A DNA stretch of 64,000 nucleotides. Source: Streptomyces paradoxus. Lineage in GTDB: Bacteria; Actinomycetota; Actinomycetes; Streptomycetales; Streptomycetaceae. A model generated the notes under the pieces. It worked only from the letters and a program-made list of their open reading frames with translations. It had not been told where the DNA came from and did not search any database. Positions 41,361 through 52,853 of the stretch are shown here, one piece after another (within the stretch, counting starts at the first letter, position 1; the number at the start of each line of letters is the position of its first letter). Both the position numbers and the translations under genes were made by a program. The stretch spans positions 558,001-622,000 of the forward strand of contig NZ_JACHGV010000002.1 of the NCBI RefSeq assembly GCF_014202475.1, given 5' to 3'.

Positions 41361-41447
41361 ATGGTTGCCCAGGCCCGGTACTTCTCGTCGCGTCGCTATG
41401 TCGACCTGCGACGCCAGGGCACGGCCACCTGTCGCCGCCCGGTGTGA
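41361..41447 (+). CDS. Putative leader peptide with single Cys, upstream of ROK gene
   Basis: 28 codons, too short for routine gene calling. The peptide contains FSSRRYVDLRRQGTATC and ends CRRPV. The core S-R-R-x-V-D-L-R-R-x with a later Cys matches what I recall as 'putative leader peptide' in front of sulfur-metabolism genes in Streptomyces, where Cys codons report cysteinyl-tRNA supply. Cys is residue 24. There is no ribosome binding site, but a -10 element sits at leaderless distance. It lies 70 bp before the ROK gene and 1.5 kb before the organosulfur operon. Confidence 0.65.
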   Translation: MVAQARYFSSRRYVDLRRQGTATCRRPV

Positions 41448-41517: not shown

Positions 41518-42717
41518 ATGCCCCCTACCGCGGCTCCCCTTCTGACGTCCCCCATCCCCCGTGTCGCCGACAGCGACCGGCGCCGCACCAGCGCGAGCGT
41601 CGTCCTGCGGTCCGTGCTGGAGCACGGGCCGGTCGCGCGCAGCACCATCGCCCGGCTGACCGGCCTGTCGCCCGCGTCGGTCACCGACTACTGCGCCCGG
41701 TTCGCCGAGTTGGGCCTCATCCGGGAGTCCGCCGTGCTGCGGCGGTCCAAGGGTGTGGGGCGGCCGCACCTGCCGGTCGACCTGGACGACTCCCGGTTCG
41801 TGGTGGGCGGGGTGCACGTGGCGGTGCCGTACACCACGGTCGCGCTGCTGGACCTGCGCGGGCGGGTACTGGCCCACAGCGAGGTGAAGCACGAGGGGCC
41901 CGAGCCCGGGCAGGTGCTGGCCCGGGCCGCCGACGCGCTGGCGGCGCTGCTCGCCGGGGTCCCCGGCAGCAGGGCGCTGGGGGTCGGGTTCGCGGCGGGC
42001 GGCTGGGTGGACCGGGACTCGGGCACCGTCGTGGAGCATCCGCTGCTGGGCTGGCGCGAGGTGGCGGTGCGGGAGGTGCTCGGGGCGCGCACCGGGCTGC
42101 CGGTCCATGTGGACGGGCACGCGCGGGCGTTGGTGAACGCGGAGCGGCTGTTCGGGCGGGTGCGGGGCAGCCGCAGTGTGCTGCACCTGTTCGCGGGCAA
42201 TGTCGTCGACGCGGCGTTCGCCACCCATGACGAGGTGCACCACGGGCCGCGCTCCCAGGCGGGGGCGATCGCCCATCTGCCGGTGCCGGGCGGCACGGAG
42301 ACCTGCGACTGCGGCCGGGTGGGCTGCCTCCAGGCCGAGCTGAGCGAGCGGACGCTGTGCCGGCGGGCCCGTGCGGCGGGGGTCGTCGACGGGGTGAACC
42401 CGATGCACGTGGTCGATGCCGCGGCGGGCGGCGACCCGGTGGCCGTGCGGCTGCTGCGGGAGCGGTCGCGGCGGGTGGGGCGGGCGGTCGGGCTGCTGCT
42501 CGATGTGCTCAATCCCGAGCGGGTGGTCGTGACGGAGATCGGGGTCATGCACCGTGCGGACTGTCTGGCCGCGCTGCGGGAAGAGGTCGGAGCGGATCGT
42601 GCCGCGACCGTCTCGCCGATCAGTTTCCCGGATTCCGTCCTTGCCGTGGCGGGTGGTTCGGTGGCGCTCGACGTCCTCTATCGGGATCCGCTGGCCGCGT
42701 CACCTGACGCTATTTAA
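41518..42717 (+). CDS. ROK-family transcriptional regulator
   Basis: 399 residues. The N-terminal winged helix-turn-helix (about 20-85; GPVARSTIARLTGLSPASVTDYCARFAELGLI) is followed by a ROK sugar-kinase-like domain. The zinc motif is CDCGRVGC, with the His in GAIAHLPV. The ATP/sugar-site segments are degenerate (GVGFAAGGWVD rather than DxGxT), so it is a regulator rather than a kinase. ATG 41518 follows AGGAAG. It is on the same strand as, and 231 bp upstream of, the organosulfur operon and may control it. ROK regulators normally respond to sugars, so the effector is open. Confidence 0.9.
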   Translation: MPPTAAPLLTSPIPRVADSDRRRTSASVVLRSVLEHGPVARSTIARLTGLSPASVTDYCARFAELGLIRESAVLRRSKGVGRPHLPVDLDDSRFVVGGVHVAVPYTTVALLDLRGRVLAHSEVKHEGPEPGQVLARAADALAALLAGVPGSRALGVGFAAGGWVDRDSGTVVEHPLLGWREVAVREVLGARTGLPVHVDGHARALVNAERLFGRVRGSRSVLHLFAGNVVDAAFATHDEVHHGPRSQAGAIAHLPVPGGTETCDCGRVGCLQAELSERTLCRRARAAGVVDGVNPMHVVDAAAGGDPVAVRLLRERSRRVGRAVGLLLDVLNPERVVVTEIGVMHRADCLAALREEVGADRAATVSPISFPDSVLAVAGGSVALDVLYRDPLAASPDAI

Positions 42718-42734
42718 TTCAGAAACTCGGAATG

Positions 42735-42764
42735 TTGACAGGACGGGCCGCTGACCAGGAACAT
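42735..42764 (+). promoter_or_regulatory. Promoter of the organosulfur operon
   Basis: Consensus -35 TTGACA (42735-42740), 18 bp, then GAACAT (42759-42764; A2 and T6 as in TANNNT). The predicted start site, 42771 or 42772, coincides with the ATG of the Cys-rich leader frame. Confidence 0.6.
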
Positions 42765-42771
42765 CCTGTTC

Positions 42772-42810
42772 ATGAACCCGCTCACGAGCTGTCGCACTCT
42801 CTGTTGCTGA
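42772..42810 (+). CDS. Cys-rich leader peptide (12 residues, ends Cys-Cys-stop)
   Basis: The frame encodes MNPLTSCRTLCC. Three of twelve codons are Cys, two immediately before the stop. It has no ribosome site but starts at the predicted transcription start, so it is probably leaderless. Poly-Cys leaderless uORFs in mycobacteria are known to act as cysteine-responsive attenuators of sulfur genes. Here it precedes an organosulfur uptake and desulfonation operon and is followed 15 nt later by a terminator-like hairpin, which fits the same logic. Codon content and position are direct observations; the regulatory role is inferred. Confidence 0.65.
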   Translation: MNPLTSCRTLCC

Positions 42811-42825
42811 CCCGTTGACGCGCCC

Positions 42826-42853
42826 AGGCGCCCGTTCACGGAGCGCCTTCTTC
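42826..42853 (+). terminator. Attenuator-like hairpin with T-rich tail
   Basis: AGGCGC (42826-42831) pairs with GCGCCT (42843-42848), with an inner CCG/CGG stem and a TTCA loop, followed by TCTTCTTCC. An alternative upstream stem GCGC-CCAG-GCGC (42820-42831) uses the same left arm, so the two folds exclude each other. Confidence 0.6.
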
Positions 42854-42865
42854 TTCCCCGTGTGA

Positions 42866-42879
42866 AATTCACGTGAATT
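42866..42879. promoter_or_regulatory. 14-bp palindrome in the operon leader
   Basis: AATTCACGTGAATT is perfectly self-complementary and AT-rich in a GC-rich setting, 69 bp before the binding-protein start. Likely operator, perhaps for the adjacent ROK regulator. Confidence 0.5.
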
Positions 42880-42948
42880 CCCCTGCCCGGCTTTTCCTGT
42901 CCGGAATTCCGCGTGCGGTGCCGCCTTCCATACCCAGGGAGTCCTCCC

Positions 42949-44007
42949 ATGCCCTCTCCTCACCTGCCCGGTCTCGACCGGCGTCTTTTCCTCACCTCAC
43001 TGCTCGGCGTGACGGCCGCGGCGGCCGGACTGAGCGGCTGCGCGGACAGCAGCGCCGCGGCCGGCGAGACGGCGTCCGACGCTCCCCTGGCCTCCAAGGT
43101 CCCGGCGGGGACGAGCCTGAAGATCTCCTCGTACCAGAACGCGCAGCAACTCCAGTTCCAGCTGGCCGGGTTCGACGATCTGCCGTTCAAGGTGTCCAAC
43201 TGGCTGAACATCGGCGCGGGCCCCGATGTCATCAACGCCTTCCGCGCGAAGTCCCTGGACGTCGCCAACAACGCCGGGATTCCGCCGATCCAGGCGCACT
43301 ACCAGGGTTTCGACGCGAAGATCGTCGCGATCAACATCACCCGCAAGCCGAACTACCTCTTCGCCACCAAGCCCGGCAGCGACATCCGTTCGGTCGCCGG
43401 GTTCAAGGGCAGGCGGCTCGCCTTCTCCCAGGGCCAGGCGCAGGGCGTCGTCCTGCTGCGGGCGCTGAAGAAGGCCGGGCTGGCGTACGACGACGTGGAG
43501 CTGGTGCCGCTGACCAGCAACCAGTTCCTCACCGCCCTGCAGTCCGGGCAGGTGGACATCGCCCCGCTCGCCAATACCCAGGCGCCCGCTTATCTGACGC
43601 AGTACAAGTCCGCCCGCACCATCACCACGGACGTGGTGGACCTGCTGAACCTGTTGTGGGCGCCGGTGTCGGTGCTGAACGACCGGGCGAAGGCCGCCGC
43701 CGTCGCCGCCTACGTGCCGTACTGGGCGAAGAGCCAGGTGTGGACGTACGAGCACCCCGACGAGTGGAACGAGCGGTTCTACGTCGGGACGCAGAACCTG
43801 ACCCTCGCCCAGGCGAAGGCGGTCACCGCACTGGCCAACAAGCCGCTGTTCCCGCCCCGCTGGGACGAGGCGATCCGCTGGGAGCAGGAGACCGCCGATC
43901 TGCTCGCGGCGGGCGGCTTCGTGAAGAAGTTCGACGTCTCCGAGCTCTTCGACCACCGCTTCGAGCCGCTGGCGGCGAAGGCCGTGCCCGCGGAGTACCG
44001 GAGGTGA
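42949..44007 (+). CDS. ABC transporter substrate-binding lipoprotein, sulfonate (SsuA) type
   Basis: 352 residues. The N terminus DRRLFLTSLLGVTAAAAGLSGC carries a twin-arginine motif and a lipobox with Cys31, so it is probably a Tat-exported lipoprotein. The mature part follows the SsuA/TauA/ThiY pattern (NWLNIGAGPDVINAFRAKSLDVANNAG, then LTSNQFLTALQSGQVDIAPLANTQAPAYL). With the permease, ATPase, flavin monooxygenase and TauD homologue it should bind an alkyl- or arylsulfonate, sulfate ester or similar organosulfur compound. ATG with AGGGAG 7 nt upstream. Confidence 0.9.
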   Translation: MPSPHLPGLDRRLFLTSLLGVTAAAAGLSGCADSSAAAGETASDAPLASKVPAGTSLKISSYQNAQQLQFQLAGFDDLPFKVSNWLNIGAGPDVINAFRAKSLDVANNAGIPPIQAHYQGFDAKIVAINITRKPNYLFATKPGSDIRSVAGFKGRRLAFSQGQAQGVVLLRALKKAGLAYDDVELVPLTSNQFLTALQSGQVDIAPLANTQAPAYLTQYKSARTITTDVVDLLNLLWAPVSVLNDRAKAAAVAAYVPYWAKSQVWTYEHPDEWNERFYVGTQNLTLAQAKAVTALANKPLFPPRWDEAIRWEQETADLLAAGGFVKKFDVSELFDHRFEPLAAKAVPAEYRR

Positions 44008-44012
44008 CCGCC

Positions 44013-44867
44013 GTGACCACGACGACGCACACGACCGCGACGGCCCCCGCGGCGCTCGCCCCGGTGGAGGGGACGCACCAGGTGCGCCGGCGCCGGCGGC
44101 TGGCCCCCGGCAAGCGGCTGCCCGCCACCCGGCTCGTCGGGCCCGCCGTCGTCCTCGCCCTGTGGAGCGTCGCCTCCGCGGCCGGGCTGCTCGATGCGGG
44201 CGCGATCCCGGCCCCCTGGACCGTGCTGGAGACGGGCAGCCGGCTGTGGAGCGCGGGCACGCTGCCGAACGACATCCTGACCTCGCTGCAGCGCGCGGCC
44301 ACCGGCTTCTCGATCGGTCTGACCGTGGGGATCCTGCTGGCGCTGGCGTCCGGGCTGACCCGGACCGGGGAGGCGCTGATCGACGGGACGGTCAACCTCA
44401 ACCGGGCCATCCCCACCCTGGGTCTGATCCCGCTGTTCATCCTGTGGCTGGGCATCGGCGAGACCTTCAAGATCGCCATCATCGCGATCGTCGTCTACAT
44501 CCCGATCTACCTCAACACACACGCCGCGCTGTCCGGCATCGACAGCCGTTTCGTCGAACTGGCCGAAGTGCAGGGGCTGTCCAAGCTCCAGTTCATCCGG
44601 CAGGTCGTCATCCCCGGCGCGCTGCCCGGCTTCTTCGTGGGACTGCGGCTCGGTGTGACCGGGTCCTGGCTGGGTCTGGTGGTGCTGGAGCAGATCAACG
44701 CCACCAGCGGCCTCGGCTACATGATGTTCCAGGCGCAGAACTACGGCCAGACGGACGTCATCCTCGTCGGCCTGGTCGTCTACGGCGTCTTCGGCCTCAT
44801 CTCCGACAGCGCGGTCCGTATCGTCGAACGGAGGGTGCTGTCATGGCGCCGCACACTGAGCAGCTGA
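44013..44867 (+). CDS. ABC transporter permease, SsuC/TauC type
   Basis: About 284 residues with a disordered Thr/Ala N terminus, a basic KKR-like stretch (RRRRRLAPGKRLPATR) and six membrane helices. The cytoplasmic EAA loop reads VELAEVQGLSKLQFIRQVVIPGALPGFFVGLRL, as in SsuC. The GTG at 44013 has GGAGGTGA 8 nt upstream; GTG 44004 would overlap the preceding stop as GTGA and is the alternative. Second subunit of the importer. Confidence 0.92.
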   Translation: MTTTTHTTATAPAALAPVEGTHQVRRRRRLAPGKRLPATRLVGPAVVLALWSVASAAGLLDAGAIPAPWTVLETGSRLWSAGTLPNDILTSLQRAATGFSIGLTVGILLALASGLTRTGEALIDGTVNLNRAIPTLGLIPLFILWLGIGETFKIAIIAIVVYIPIYLNTHAALSGIDSRFVELAEVQGLSKLQFIRQVVIPGALPGFFVGLRLGVTGSWLGLVVLEQINATSGLGYMMFQAQNYGQTDVILVGLVVYGVFGLISDSAVRIVERRVLSWRRTLSS

Positions 44868-45577
44868 CCCGTCCCGCCGTCCGGCTGCGCGGCCTGACCC
44901 GGTCGTTCGAGGGGCGCACGGTCCTCGACGGCATCGACCTCGATCTGCCCGCCGGGCAGCTGACGGCCCTGCTCGGGCACAGCGGCTCCGGTAAGAGCAC
45001 CCTGCTGCGGGCGATCGCCGGACTCGACCACGGCGTCGCGGGAAGCGGGCAGCTCACCGCGCCCGAGCGGGTGTCGGTGGTCTTCCAGGACTCCCGGCTG
45101 CTGCCCTGGCGGCGGGTCCTCGACAACGTGCTGCTCGGCGCGGAGGGCAAGGACGCCGGGCGCAAGGGCCGTGAAGCCCTGGAAGAGGTGGGGCTGAAGG
45201 GCCGCGAGCGAGCGTGGCCGGGCCAGCTGTCCGGCGGCGAGGCCCAGCGCGCCGCCCTGGCCCGGTCGCTCGTAACGGAGCCGGAACTGCTGCTGGCCGA
45301 CGAGCCGTTCGGGGCGCTGGACGCGCTGACCCGGATCCGGATGCACGGCCTGCTGCGGGAGCTGTGGGAGCGCCACCGGCCCTCGGTGCTGCTGGTCACC
45401 CACGACGTGGACGAGGCGATCGTGCTCGCCGACCGGGTGCTCGTCCTGGAGAAGGGCCGCATCGGCCTCGACCTCACCATCGACCGCGCGCACCCGCGGT
45501 CGTACCGCGACCCCCTGCTCGGCGAATACCGGGAGCGGCTGCTGGCCGCGCTCGGTGTCACGGAGGACCACCGATGA
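44843..45577 (+). CDS. ABC transporter ATPase, SsuB/TauB type
   Basis: 244 residues. Walker A GHSGSGKS, Q-loop VVFQDSRLLPWRRVLDNV (typical of SsuB/TauB), signature LSGGEAQR, Walker B LLLADEPFGALD and H-loop VTHDVDEAI are intact. It overlaps the permease gene by 25 bp and its stop overlaps the next start as ATGA. GGAGGG lies 8 nt before the ATG. Energises uptake of the organosulfur substrate. Confidence 0.94.
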   Translation: MAPHTEQLTRPAVRLRGLTRSFEGRTVLDGIDLDLPAGQLTALLGHSGSGKSTLLRAIAGLDHGVAGSGQLTAPERVSVVFQDSRLLPWRRVLDNVLLGAEGKDAGRKGREALEEVGLKGRERAWPGQLSGGEAQRAALARSLVTEPELLLADEPFGALDALTRIRMHGLLRELWERHRPSVLLVTHDVDEAIVLADRVLVLEKGRIGLDLTIDRAHPRSYRDPLLGEYRERLLAALGVTEDHR

Positions 45578-46917
45578 CCCGCAGACAGCTGCACCTCAAC
45601 GCGTTCCTGATGAACACCGGCCACCACGAGGCGTCGTGGCGACTGCCGGAGAGCGACCCGTACGCGAGTGTCGACCTGGCCCACTACGTACGGCTCGCCC
45701 GGATCGCCGAGCGGGGCACCTTCGACTCGCTGTTCCTCGCCGACGGCCCGCAGCTGTGGAGCAGTGTGGGCCAGCGGCCCGCCGGGGCGCTGGAGCCGAT
45801 CACGCTGCTGACGGCGCTGGCGACGGCGACGGAGCACATCGGCCTGATCGCCACGGCCTCCACCTCGTACAACTCGCCGTACAACCTGGCCCGCAAGTTC
45901 GCCACGCTGGACCACATCAGCGGCGGCCGGGCGGGCTGGAACATCGTCACGACCGCCGGTGCCGAGGCCGCCCGGAACTTCGGTCTGGACGCCGAGCCGG
46001 CGCACGCCGAACGGTACGCGCGGGCCGCCGAGTTCCTCGACGTGGCGCTGAAGCTGTGGGACAGCTGGGAGGACGACACGATCGTCGCCGACAAGGCGGC
46101 GGGCGTGTGGGGCGACGACGCGAAGATCCACCCGCCCCGGCACCGGGGCCGCTACTTCAGCGTTGAAGGCGCGCTCAACGTGCCCCGCTCGCCCCAGGGT
46201 TATCCGCTCCTCGTGCAGGCCGGTTCCTCCGAGGACGGCAAGCGATTCGCCGCACGGTACGCGGAGGCGGTGTTCACCGCCCAGCAGACCGTCGAGGACG
46301 CGCGGGCCTTCTACACCGACCTCAAGTCCCGGACGGTCGCGGCGGGCCGGGACGCCGACCACATCAAGGTGCTGCCGGGCATCGTCCCGGTGATCGGCTC
46401 CACGGAGGCCGAGGCGCGGGCGCACGAGCGGGTCCTGGAGGAGCACATCGTGCACACGCACGGAGTGAACCACCTGGAGCGGCTGCTGCACCTGGACCCG
46501 GGCACCCTGGAGCTGGACGGCCCGCTGCCGGCCGATCTGCCGCCGGAGAGCGCCATCGAGGGCGCCAAGAGCCGCTACACGCTGATCGTCGAGCTGGCCC
46601 GGCGCGAGCGGCTCACCGTGCGGCAGCTCATCGGGCGGCTGGGCGGAGGCCGCGGGCACCTCACCTTCGCCGGAACGCCCGAGCAGGTCGCCGACACGAT
46701 CCAGCTCTGGTTCGAGTCGGGCGCGGCCGACGGCTTCAACATCATGCCCGCCCTGCTGCCGTCCGGCCTGGAGGCCTTCGTCGACCACGTCGTCCCGATC
46801 CTGCGCGCCCGCGGCCTGCTCCGCACCGAGTACGGCAGTCCCCGCCGCACCCTGCGGGAGCGGTACGGCCTGCCGCGCCCCGCCAACCAGCACGTCATCG
46901 CCCCCGCACTCGTCTGA
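45574..46917 (+). CDS. FMN-dependent monooxygenase, NtaA/DszA/SnaA family
   Basis: 447 residues, bacterial luciferase-like TIM barrel. The N terminus QLHLNAFLMNTGHHEASWR and the segments ASTSYNSPYNLARKFATLDHISGGRAGWNIVTT and HRGRYFSVEGALNVPRSPQGYPLLVQAGSS are diagnostic of the nitrilotriacetate/dibenzothiophene-sulfone monooxygenase group. These need reduced FMN from a separate reductase, which is not in the window. In this setting a C-S bond-cleaving role on an organosulfur compound is likely. ATGA overlap with the ATPase stop couples it to the importer. Confidence 0.92.
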   Translation: MTRRQLHLNAFLMNTGHHEASWRLPESDPYASVDLAHYVRLARIAERGTFDSLFLADGPQLWSSVGQRPAGALEPITLLTALATATEHIGLIATASTSYNSPYNLARKFATLDHISGGRAGWNIVTTAGAEAARNFGLDAEPAHAERYARAAEFLDVALKLWDSWEDDTIVADKAAGVWGDDAKIHPPRHRGRYFSVEGALNVPRSPQGYPLLVQAGSSEDGKRFAARYAEAVFTAQQTVEDARAFYTDLKSRTVAAGRDADHIKVLPGIVPVIGSTEAEARAHERVLEEHIVHTHGVNHLERLLHLDPGTLELDGPLPADLPPESAIEGAKSRYTLIVELARRERLTVRQLIGRLGGGRGHLTFAGTPEQVADTIQLWFESGAADGFNIMPALLPSGLEAFVDHVVPILRARGLLRTEYGSPRRTLRERYGLPRPANQHVIAPALV

Positions 46918-46930
46918 GAGGAACTCCGCC

Positions 46931-47824
46931 ATGAGCATTCAGATCCACAAGGTCACCGCGAACATCGGCGCCCGCGTCGAGGGCGTCGACATCACCCGGC
47001 CCCTCGACGAGGAGACCTCCACCGCCCTGCGTGAGGCGCTCAACGCCCACAAGGCCCTGGTCTTCGACGCGGAGGGCCTGGACGACGCGGGCCAGCAGGC
47101 CTTCGTCCGCCACTTCGGCGACATCACCACCGCCCATCCGACGGTGTCGGCCGTCGACGGCGCCCCGAACGTGCTGCCCGTCGACAGCGAGGGCGGCCGG
47201 GCCGCCAACCACTGGCACACCGACGTCACCTTCGTCCTCAACCCGCCGCAGGCCACCAGCCTGCGCAGCATCACCGTCCCGCCCTACGGCGGCGAGACGC
47301 TGATCGCCAGCTCGGCCGCCGCCTACCGCAACCTGCCCGAGTCGCTGCGCGGCCTCGCCGACACGCTGTGGGCCGAGCACACCAACGACTACGACTACGC
47401 CGTCCCGGAGGAGGACGTCGACGAGGAGCAGTCCGCCCGGCGCGCCCAGTTCACCTCGATCAAGTACCGCACGGTCCACCCGGTGGTCCGCGTCCACCCG
47501 CTCACCGGGGAGCGAGGCCTGTTCATCGGCGGCTTCGCCCAGCGGATCGTGGGCCTGTCCGCCGGCGAGTCCCGCAAGATCCTCGACCTGCTCCAGGCGT
47601 ACGTCACCCGGCCGGAGAACGTCCTGCGCCACCGTTGGTCGCCGAACCAGCTCGTCCTGTTCGACAACCGCATCACCCAGCACTACGCCGTCGACAACTA
47701 CGACGGCCTGCCCCGCCGCCTGCACCGGGTGACGGTGGCCGGGGACATCCCCGTGGGCATCGAGGGCAAGGAGAGCTACGTCATCGAGGGCGACGCCTCG
47801 CACTACACGCCGGTCGCCGCGTAG
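46931..47824 (+). CDS. TauD/TfdA-family Fe(II)/2-oxoglutarate dioxygenase
   Basis: 297 residues. Iron ligands are His96 and Asp98 in HWHTDVTF and His251 in ITQHYAVDNY; the 2-oxoglutarate Arg is in PRRLHRVTV (about 262-266). TauD-type enzymes hydroxylate taurine, alkylsulfonates or alkyl sulfates so that sulfite or sulfate is released. Together with the upstream FMN monooxygenase it gives the operon two desulfurising enzymes of different chemistry. ATG start with AGAGGAAC upstream. Last gene of the operon, followed by a strong terminator. Confidence 0.93.
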   Translation: MSIQIHKVTANIGARVEGVDITRPLDEETSTALREALNAHKALVFDAEGLDDAGQQAFVRHFGDITTAHPTVSAVDGAPNVLPVDSEGGRAANHWHTDVTFVLNPPQATSLRSITVPPYGGETLIASSAAAYRNLPESLRGLADTLWAEHTNDYDYAVPEEDVDEEQSARRAQFTSIKYRTVHPVVRVHPLTGERGLFIGGFAQRIVGLSAGESRKILDLLQAYVTRPENVLRHRWSPNQLVLFDNRITQHYAVDNYDGLPRRLHRVTVAGDIPVGIEGKESYVIEGDASHYTPVAA

Positions 47825-47856: not shown

Positions 47857-47888
47857 GGATGCCTCTCCGTCACGACGGAGAGGCATCC
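47857..47888 (+). terminator. Intrinsic terminator of the organosulfur operon
   Basis: 14-bp perfect arms GGATGCCTCTCCGT and ACGGAGAGGCATCC around CACG, with GTTTTTG 12 nt later. A smaller AGTCAC/GTGACT inverted repeat lies just upstream. Confidence 0.85.
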
Positions 47889-47945
47889 GAGACTGGCGGC
47901 GTTTTTGCCCTCGTACGCCCCTCACGCATTGGACGAGCCGCGCCC

Positions 47946-49331
47946 ATGCCCAGCAGCACCACCCAGACGCCGACCGGCACGGACGGCGTCTCCCTCTCCC
48001 ACGGCCTGAAGCAGCGCCACCTGTCGATGATCGCGCTCGGCGGGGTGATCGGAGCCGGTCTGTTCGTCGGCTCCGGTGCCGGTATCGCCGCCGCCGGTCC
48101 GTCGATCGTGGTCGCCTACGCCCTCTCCGGTGTCCTCGTGATGCTGGTGATGCGGATGCTCGGCGAGATGTCGGCCGCGTATCCGTCGTCGGGGTCGTTC
48201 TCGGCGCACGCCGAGCGGGCGATCGGCCCCTGGGCCGGATTCACCGCCGGCTGGTCCTTCTGGGTGCTGCTCTGCACGGCCGTCGGCCTGGAGGGCATCG
48301 GCGCCGCGAAGATCGTCAGCGGCTGGCTGCCGGGTACGCCGGAGTGGGCGTGGGTGGCGCTGTTCATGGTCGTCTTCTGCGCCACGAACCTCGCGGCCGT
48401 GAAGAACTTCGGCGAGTTCGAGTTCTGGTTCGCGGCGCTGAAGGTCGGCGCGATCACCCTGTTCCTGGTGCTGGGTGTCCTGGCGATCCTCGGGATCCTG
48501 CCCGGCACGGACTCGCCGGGCGCGAGTCACCTCACGGACTTCCTGCCGAACGGCAGCGAGGGCCTGGTCATCGGCCTGCTCGCCTCGGTCTTCGCCTACG
48601 GCGGCCTGGAGACGGTCACCATCGCGGCGGCCGAGTCGGAGAACCCCGTCCAGGGCGTCGCGAGCGCGGTCCGCACGGCGATGTGGCGCATCGCGCTGTT
48701 CTACATCGGCTCGATGGCCGTCATCGTCACGCTCGTCCCCTGGGACTCCAAGGAGGTCGTCGAGAAGGGCCCGTACGTCGCCGCCCTCGACGAGCTCGGC
48801 ATCCCGGGCGCCGGCCAGCTGATGAACGTGGTCGTGCTGGTCGCCCTGCTGTCGGCGATGAACGCCAACATCTACGGCGCCTCGCGCATCGCGTACTCGC
48901 TGGTGGAGCGCGGCCAGGGCCCGAAGGGTCTTGGCCGGGTCTCGGGCGGGGTGCCGCGGATCGCCGTGCTGGCGTCCTCGGTCTTCGGCTTCCTGTGCGT
49001 GCTGCTGAGCTACTGGCGGCCCGACGACGTCTTCGCCTGGCTGCTGAACATGATCGGCGCGGTGATCCTGGCCGTCTGGATCTTCATCGCCGTCTCGCAA
49101 CTGCGGCTGCGCCGCCGCCTGGAGCGTGAGTCCCCGGAGAAGCTGGCCGTGCGTATGTGGGCGTTCCCCTGGCTGACCTGGGTCGCCCTGGCCGGCATGG
49201 CCGCGGTCTTCGTCCTGATGGCCCGCGAGCCGGACACGCGGGTGCAGCTGTACTCGACGGGCGGGATGATCCTGGTCCTGGCGGCGGTCGGGTACGCCTG
49301 GCAGCGGACGCGGGCCAGGGCCGAGGACTGA
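47946..49331 (+). CDS. APC-family amino acid permease, paralogue of the gene at 35955
   Basis: 461 residues with twelve membrane helices. It shares long near-identical blocks with the first permease: LKQRHLSMIALGGVIGAGLF and MRMLGEMSAAYPSSGSFSAH near the start, and VPWDSKEV later. The substrate is unknown. It is not obviously part of the sulfur operon, since a terminator lies between. ATG 47946; the ribosome site is weak. Its TGA directly abuts the TCA (stop) of the opposing STAND gene, leaving no intergenic base. Confidence 0.9.
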   Translation: MPSSTTQTPTGTDGVSLSHGLKQRHLSMIALGGVIGAGLFVGSGAGIAAAGPSIVVAYALSGVLVMLVMRMLGEMSAAYPSSGSFSAHAERAIGPWAGFTAGWSFWVLLCTAVGLEGIGAAKIVSGWLPGTPEWAWVALFMVVFCATNLAAVKNFGEFEFWFAALKVGAITLFLVLGVLAILGILPGTDSPGASHLTDFLPNGSEGLVIGLLASVFAYGGLETVTIAAAESENPVQGVASAVRTAMWRIALFYIGSMAVIVTLVPWDSKEVVEKGPYVAALDELGIPGAGQLMNVVVLVALLSAMNANIYGASRIAYSLVERGQGPKGLGRVSGGVPRIAVLASSVFGFLCVLLSYWRPDDVFAWLLNMIGAVILAVWIFIAVSQLRLRRRLERESPEKLAVRMWAFPWLTWVALAGMAAVFVLMAREPDTRVQLYSTGGMILVLAAVGYAWQRTRARAED

Positions 49332-52742: not shown

Positions 52743-52805
52743 GTCCGTGAAGCGTCCTGCCTCGTGATCGTCTTCTCACCCTTCACGACCGGCAGGCGGA
52801 AAGAA

Positions 52806-52842
52806 GGAAACCCCCGCGAGGACATGACTCGCGGGGGTTTCC
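52806..52842. terminator. Bidirectional terminator, 15-bp perfect stem
   Basis: GGAAACCCCCGCGAG and CTCGCGGGGGTTTCC with a 7-nt loop, between the convergent sodF and methyltransferase genes. Confidence 0.85.
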
Positions 52843-52853
52843 CGTGGTGCGCG

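Follow-up and report, generated by a model that had tools for sequence, protein, structure and literature searches.

Polycysteine leaderless open reading frames (ORFs) of mycobacteria, curated as NF042933 (leader_Ms5788A) and NF042936 (leader_Ms4527A; Shell et al., 2015, PMC4633059), are the comparison system for the leader described here. Candidate Cys leaders before actinobacterial cys/cbs operons were described earlier in Mycobacterium, Propionibacterium and Bifidobacterium (Seliverstov et al., 2005, PMC1262725, in the part of that text available to us); the polypyrimidine stretches that follow the mycobacterial ones were suggested there as Rho sites, a prediction that was itself called weak. 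In Streptomyces lividans, according to the accessible portion of PMC8079986, leaderless transcripts account for 17% of primary starts. The leader before metNIQ, assigned to methionine in Table 4 of that paper, ends in ARCMCRRMCAF and, given its three Cys, may in fact be a cysteine leader.

Our analysis concerns a window of 64,000 nucleotides of Streptomyces paradoxus (contig NZ_JACHGV010000002.1, positions 558,001 to 622,000 of the forward strand), this being the whole stretch analysed; coordinates below are counted from its first letter. A previous reading, made from the letters alone and hereafter called the sequence-only reading, had proposed a cysteine attenuator before an organosulfur operon as a design not known from such Streptomyces operons. 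This novelty was overstated: NCBI curates NF042933, NF042934 and NF042936, and seven NF042934 leaders lie in this same genome. In the literature searched, whose coverage did not extend to the main mycobacterial paper, we found no description of the short leader form or of its NtaA/TauD-type operon, nor of a paired leader on a ROK gene.

The leader ORF (42772-42810, + strand) encodes MNPLTSCRTLCC, a putatively leaderless peptide of 12 aa that runs from an ATG at 42772 to a TGA at 42808-42810, in agreement with the 12-codon frame with Cys-Cys before its stop that had been read earlier. Its first Cys codon (42790-42792, +) is UGU, and two further Cys codons, UGU UGC, stand in tandem directly 5' of the stop (42802-42807, +). 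Among the 41 unique leaders of the family, the first position is TGT in 38 and TGC in two, the aligned place being without Cys in one long form; the second is UGU in all 41 and the third UGC in 39. A pattern search for further copies in the same genome returned this single copy only.

The -35 element, TTGACA (42735-42740, +), is identical in 94/94 unique promoters; the hexamer was required by the promoter script, and no leader-bearing locus was dropped for lacking it. The -10 element, GAACAT (42759-42764, +), follows after an 18-nt spacer and is separated from the ATG by 7 nt. Its A2 and T6 are found in all 94 unique promoters, and mean identity between the two elements is 0.68. The promoter had been called consensus-like, which is correct for the -35 element and not for a match to TATAAT. 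A TATAAT-based sigma-70 consensus scan of the window detected no promoter at the leader because the -10 is of another type. GAACAT fits the Streptomyces -10, which in the available text on S. lividans reads TAnnnT, with A at position 2 and T at 6, and lies 4-9 nt from the start (PMC8079986). The invariant spacing makes the A of the ATG at 42772 the likely transcription start.

Comparison with relatives confirmed that this is a real, conserved Cys leader. Loci were chosen by the downstream binding protein alone, as the best 80 of 109 confirmed, and all come from Streptomyces except one labelled Actinobacteria bacterium. The leader is present at 79 of these 80 loci and ends in Cys-Cys-TGA in 79/79, which excludes chance. 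The 79 leaders fall into the 41 distinct sequences and encode peptides of 8-27 aa, a range that ignores an extra in-frame ATG within the -10 region of eight loci. Nevertheless, the start of TTGACA lies 37 nt from the ATG in 110 of 111 loci, a set that includes 31 loci found by DNA similarity and whose sole exception (L093) has no leader. If translation begins at the very 5' end of a leaderless transcript, the promoter-ATG distance should be constant even where peptide length varies, as is the case here. The conserved core reads SCRTLCC, and in 21 unique cores the last nine bases (Cys-Cys-stop) are invariant except for one wobble base.

At the scale of the genus, the binding protein was detected at E <= 1e-80 in 126 of 392 Streptomyces genomes, with 75-100% identity in 99 of them and 50-58% in 27. 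Conservation of the Cys codons in orthologous loci, which the sequence-only reading had named as a check, was borne out: 93 of the 99 orthologous operons keep both the CC leader and its promoter. In three others the leader ends in CR with promoter-like sequence still in place, a substitution that counts against the Cys-sensing reading developed below, and in the last three the leader promoter is gone and the ROK gene is gone from its place. The leader pattern occurs in 86/392 genomes, 84 of which fall among the 99; in each of these 84 it lies on the contig and strand of the binding protein, 82-306 nt before its match. The remaining 15 operons include nine CC leaders, namely eight long forms such as MSSARVQVPLTKCRVVDLMRVARTRCC and the form MSCRSFRTLCC. 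Upstream of the distant binding-protein homologues (50-58% identity), no CC-ending or VDL-type leader was found in any of the 23 regions examined (of 27). A loose ORF filter also passed MASTASPRRPGGAGWRAVSPCSTG at L154, an unrelated short ORF, and unrelated ORFs in L123 and L129.

Several loci suggest how the leader has been remodelled. Sequence comparison shows that removal of nine in-frame codons from the long form ...TRCRVIDLMRVGRTLCC of L135 yields the short ...CRTLCC form; the window leader may thus have arisen from the long one by internal shortening. In two genomes (G077 and G286; loci L138 and L139), four genes have been deleted and the leader now stands before the TauD-like dioxygenase gene; the leader pattern is present there although no binding protein is found at E <= 1e-80. 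Losses are seen on the other side as well. At L093, most of the ROK gene is missing, as is the leader promoter, and the old CC leader has decayed. The ROK gene and the CC-leader promoter are likewise lost at L133, L129 and L123, where the sequence behind the ROK leader retains, respectively, a promoterless MSCRTLCC, a promoterless MSCRTLCR and an unreadable leader remnant. At all four loci the ROK leader is now the one that precedes the operon. Short tandem duplications surround the leader stop in L022 and L030 (TGTTGCTGAC) and in L125 (TTGACACG).

Downstream, the five organosulfur genes listed by the sequence-only reading were recovered, all on the + strand. The first structural gene encodes an SsuA-like ABC substrate-binding protein (42949-44007; PF09084; TIGR01728 at 108 bits, under the cut-off of 163.5). 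It is followed by genes for an SsuC-like ABC permease (44010-44867, start approximate), an SsuB-like ABC ATPase (44861-45577), an NtaA/DmoA-family FMN-dependent monooxygenase (45577-46917; TIGR03860 at 555.9 bits, over the cut-off of 279.7) and a TauD-family dioxygenase (46931-47824; PF02668, E 9e-61). An amino-acid permease gene (47859-49331) lies on the same strand 34 nt past the dioxygenase gene, is also found in L138 and L139, and may belong to the operon. Further along, a sodF sRNA was recognized at 52752-52843 (RF02790, 91.2 bits).

Upstream of the leader lies a gene for a ROK-family transcriptional regulator (41518-42717, +; PF00480, E 9e-30), which is present at 79 of the 80 loci (best 80 of 109). 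A second leader ORF, MVAQARYFSSRRYVDLRRQGTATCRRPV (41361-41447, +), precedes it, with TAGCGT 7 nt before its ATG and 70 nt between its stop and the ROK gene. The Cys leader reported earlier is accompanied by this one, which had gone unmentioned. Similar ROK leaders occur in 73 of the 75 loci that have a ROK N-terminus, the exceptions being L063 and L085, and in relatives their ATG lies 6-7 nt from a TAnnnT box. Against NF042934, the ROK leader of the window scores 20.3 bits, under the cut-off of 27, and that of one relative 29.2. This Cys-containing leader probably gates the ROK regulator, in which case a single cysteine signal may act on regulator and operon alike.

Directly before the -35 element, at 42717-42733 (no strand assigned), lies an interrupted palindrome, ATTCnGAnnnTCnGAAT (ATTCAGAAACTCGGAAT). 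This is the sole exact match in the genome, with four further places at one mismatch; it is matched by 81/94 unique promoters, with identity of at least 0.90 at 16 of 17 positions. It may be an operator for a regulator encoded nearby, the ROK protein being the simplest candidate. Where the ROK gene ends (42697-42710), a short hairpin, GCGTCACCTGACGC then TATTTAATTC, was listed as terminator-like and could separate that gene from the operon.

The RNA beyond the leader stop has more variable properties. The hairpin with a T-rich tail described earlier is present at 42826-42848 (+), followed by UCUUCUUCCCC, as judged by folding, and similar hairpins occur in a minority of relatives. The fold of 42811-42860 reaches -15.5 kcal/mol (z -1.74), 10/200 shuffles being equally good, and a terminator scan returned a site with a shorter stem (42833-42845) inside this hairpin. 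By a re-implementation of the rule of the scan tool, 18/93 unique post-leader sequences contain a terminator-like hairpin against a shuffle mean of 7.2, and 42/93 against 16.5 when four Ts are allowed, although kinship among the sequences causes such shuffle comparisons, like the Fisher tests below, to overstate significance. Since the relatives qualify in these proportions, with short stems and a U tail that is not conserved, an intrinsic terminator is not universal in the family. The proposal of a cysteine attenuator is supported as regards the conserved leaderless-type CC ORF before organosulfur genes and, for its terminator, only in part.

A mutually exclusive stem had also been proposed. 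It can be read from the window sequence as GCGC/GCGC, 4 bp, a weak pairing; when pairs were counted in 75 sequences for three antiterminator registers, none paired throughout, and candidate pairs failed in many of the sequences. Although single sequences had made it look convincing, an antiterminator/terminator switch built of three conserved segments was accordingly rejected, as no register holds family-wide. A second hairpin, CACGUGAAUUCC with GGAAUUC.GCGUG (42870-42915, +), emerged from folding and alignment; its stability is no better than that of shuffles (z -0.01) and it shows few two-sided changes.

In composition, the stretch 42811-42935 (+) is G-poor and 65% pyrimidine, and is a candidate Rho entry region. 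The family mean after the leader is 69% (97 unique sequences), whereas 193 control upstream regions from relatives average 53%, about 1% of them reaching 64.5%; 20 control regions of the window itself average 52%, with a maximum of 66% in one region. N-containing sequences were skipped in the family count, as in the ribosome-binding-site folding and the terminator shuffles. The 80 nt after NF042934 leaders of the same genome are at least 64% pyrimidine in five of seven cases and 57-59% in two, and the region after the ROK leader is purine-rich (38% pyrimidine).

We consider it reasonably probable that the ORF is a cysteinyl-tRNA-sensing leader ahead of a sulfonate operon. RNA polymerase would start at the A of the ATG at 42772, and a ribosome would load at the 5' end and translate the 12 codons. 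With ample Cys-tRNA it would reach the stop and leave, and most transcripts would end in the following pyrimidine-rich stretch, termination being aided by the hairpin 42826-42848 or by Rho. With scarce Cys-tRNA the ribosome would halt at the UGU Cys codons that shortly precede the stop, cover the start of the pyrimidine stretch and alter folding, so that the polymerase would read into the sulfonate genes. Ribosome halting and a response to Cys appear likely as parts of this scheme. Whether its output would be premature transcription termination rather than translational control is an evenly balanced matter. The pyrimidine bias, the excess of hairpins over shuffles and the failure of a halted ribosome, in silico, to free the ribosome-binding site of the first gene lead us to favour, with about even confidence, a premature end of transcription within the pyrimidine-rich leader, whether intrinsic or dependent on Rho.

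The main rival is translational control, because it has been reported for Cys leaders of M. smegmatis (PMC13236596, available to us in part). A halted ribosome would then keep the mRNA from folding into a form that hides the ribosome-binding site of the first structural gene, that for the binding protein. The GGAG of this gene is indeed predicted to be mostly paired, with a mean unpaired probability of 0.15 in 96 sequences. However, the leader ORF supplies on average only 0.04 of this pairing, and a halted-ribosome footprint placed in silico shifts GGAG accessibility by more than 0.1 in only 2/96 sequences. Masking of this site by the leader was rejected as a candidate structure, the free and footprint folds of the 96 sequences being almost identical, equilibrium folding at such lengths being a weak test of masking. 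We retain it among the rivals because of the mycobacterial precedent, as a rather unlikely explanation.

It is improbable, in our view, that the short ORF is incidental and that a promoter with an operator (e.g. for the ROK protein) and an RNA hairpin that happens to contain the Cys codons have been conserved instead. The motif before the -35 element comes close to the promoter in conservation, and a stem, GUCGCA/UGC.UGAC, can be drawn inside the ORF with five of its six pairs present in 75/75 sequences and one in 73/75; in the portion of PMC8632094 available to us, the Rhodobacterales cysS attenuator likewise has its Cys codons in a stem. Yet in the 75 sequences the in-ORF stem varies on one side only, which is no proof of structure, and in the window it is no more stable than shuffles (z 0.34). 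L136 shows a two-sided change in one pair and breaks in others, and in the long form of L135, which still ends in RTLCC, the stem is broken. Moreover, however much the leaders differ in length, they preserve the spacing to the ATG, the frame and the stop. That the peptide has a function of its own, in trans or as a small product binding, for example, metals or thiols, would suit its three Cys and conserved SCRTLCC core, but is very improbable given that 8-residue forms exist, that length and N-terminus vary, and that two Cys positions are constant in codon as well as in residue.

The preferred reading, a cysteinyl-tRNA-sensing leader, can be placed among the curated leader families, of which NF042933, NF042934 and NF042936 were matched in this analysis. 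The window leader gave no match above any NCBIfam cut-off tested, and at 12 residues its peptide is too short for a profile scan with a minimum of 20. It was absent from the five places returned by an NF042933 search of its genome and from the 13 places (seven above the cut-off of 27) returned by NF042934. Of four long-form orthologues scanned with NF042933, one scored 20.9 bits (E 2e-4) and another 14.6 (E 0.019), both below the cut-off of 45, and the remaining two, in inner-start versions, showed no match.

Most of the seven leaders of this genome that exceed the NF042934 cut-off stand before sulfur genes, some named from Pfam and others by reading the translation. Recognized through Pfam were a cysteine-synthase-type PLP enzyme, a cysteine dioxygenase (accompanied by a rhodanese-like protein), an FMN reductase and a rhodanese-type sulfurtransferase, whose leader scores 43.6 bits against NF042933 (cut-off 45). 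Named by reading were a cation symporter and a sulfite/nitrite reductase, each behind a leader of its own, an SsuD-like monooxygenase that accompanies the FMN reductase, and an SsuC-like/SsuB-like pair. Six of the seven leaders have nAnnnT 6-7 nt before the start. NF042934 exceeds its cut-off in 45/60 genomes of the class, and 14 control genomes gave no match at E <= 0.01.

Comparison of these leaders revealed a codon rule. The predicted genes of the window use 104 UGC and 14 UGU codons, against 7 UGC and 12 UGU in nine leaders of this genome, whose counts were entered by hand (Fisher p 4e-6, with the overstatement due to kinship mentioned above). In ROK leaders, the last Cys codon is UGU in 69/70 distinct sequences. 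A class-wide NF042934 search gave 104 rows above cut-off, seven of them in the S. paradoxus genome, and each of the remaining 97 was read. The last position of the profile is a Cys, though not always the last Cys of the peptide; its codon is UGU in 7/7 leaders of this genome and in 95/96 Cys rows outside it (L113-L119, L172-L269; 28/28, 40/40 and 27/29 in successive batches of class-wide rows). The exceptions are L263, with UGC, and L257, without Cys at that position.

Because NF042934 models protein, it is not expected to select for codons. Around the first 29 class-wide leaders, the genes contain 149 UGC and 25 UGU (p 6e-20 for the first 28 leaders, likewise inflated by kinship). Within the NF042934 matches, the other Cys codons are mostly UGC (27 against 5 UGU in 27 leaders, then 20 against 1 and 13 against 2), and the third base of Val, Asp, Arg and Ala/Ser codons varies. 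The base after the codon at the last profile position is C or T in 27/27, 38/40 and 28/29 cases. Within this sample the observation itself is well supported, and two readings of its mechanism can be offered. A single tRNA presumably reads both Cys codons. On the simplest reading of these sequences, the Cys codon at the last profile position would be the sensor and its wobble decoding would matter; alternatively, UGUY could have a role at the nucleotide level. Our tentative proposal, which we rate somewhat below an even chance, is that actinobacterial Cys leaders share a UGU(+pyrimidine) sensor whose slow wobble decoding would halt the ribosome at a mild shortage of Cys-tRNA, and that here the pairing with the ROK leader would let one tRNA-charging signal gate both the regulator and its presumed target operon.

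We found no statement of the UGU rule in the literature searched, which left the main mycobacterial paper outside its coverage, and the rule may be stated there. The phrase UGU codon turned up in one paper, on the Rhodobacterales cysS motif (PMC8632094, seen in part). The rule reduces the sensing of Cys-tRNA by short leaders to a single synonymous-codon question, and can be used to annotate leaders whose length is insufficient for profile models.

The window leader can be compared with several known systems. The S. lividans leader attenuators show that leaderless leader peptides occur in a streptomycete too; eight are listed in the accessible part of that study, none of them assigned to cysteine (PMC8079986). 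The Rhodobacterales cysS attenuator uORFC-8-2 shares with our leader tandem Cys codons, a stem containing them and a second downstream stem, but belongs to another phylum and has a conserved U run; in the available text UGC is dominant there, so that the UGU rule is not general to Cys leaders (PMC8632094). With the leaders of Seliverstov et al. (2005, PMC1262725), whose set in the portion available to us has no Streptomyces Cys leader, it has in common Cys codons near the stop, the lack of a conserved terminator and pyrimidine-rich stretches. Like the NF042934 leaders, it precedes sulfur genes and carries a UGU Cys codon; unlike them, it is without the VDLxR motif, which the ROK leader has. 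As in the mycobacterial polycysteine leaders, the ORF would lie at the 5' end of the operon mRNA, with a terminal Cys cluster and sulfur genes downstream, whereas the window form has 12 aa (8 in some relatives) and serves a different operon. The leader probably sets when Streptomyces uses sulfonates; the sensing of cysteine by ribosomes, which has been studied in mycobacteria, would thereby extend to the scavenging of organosulfur compounds in this genus.
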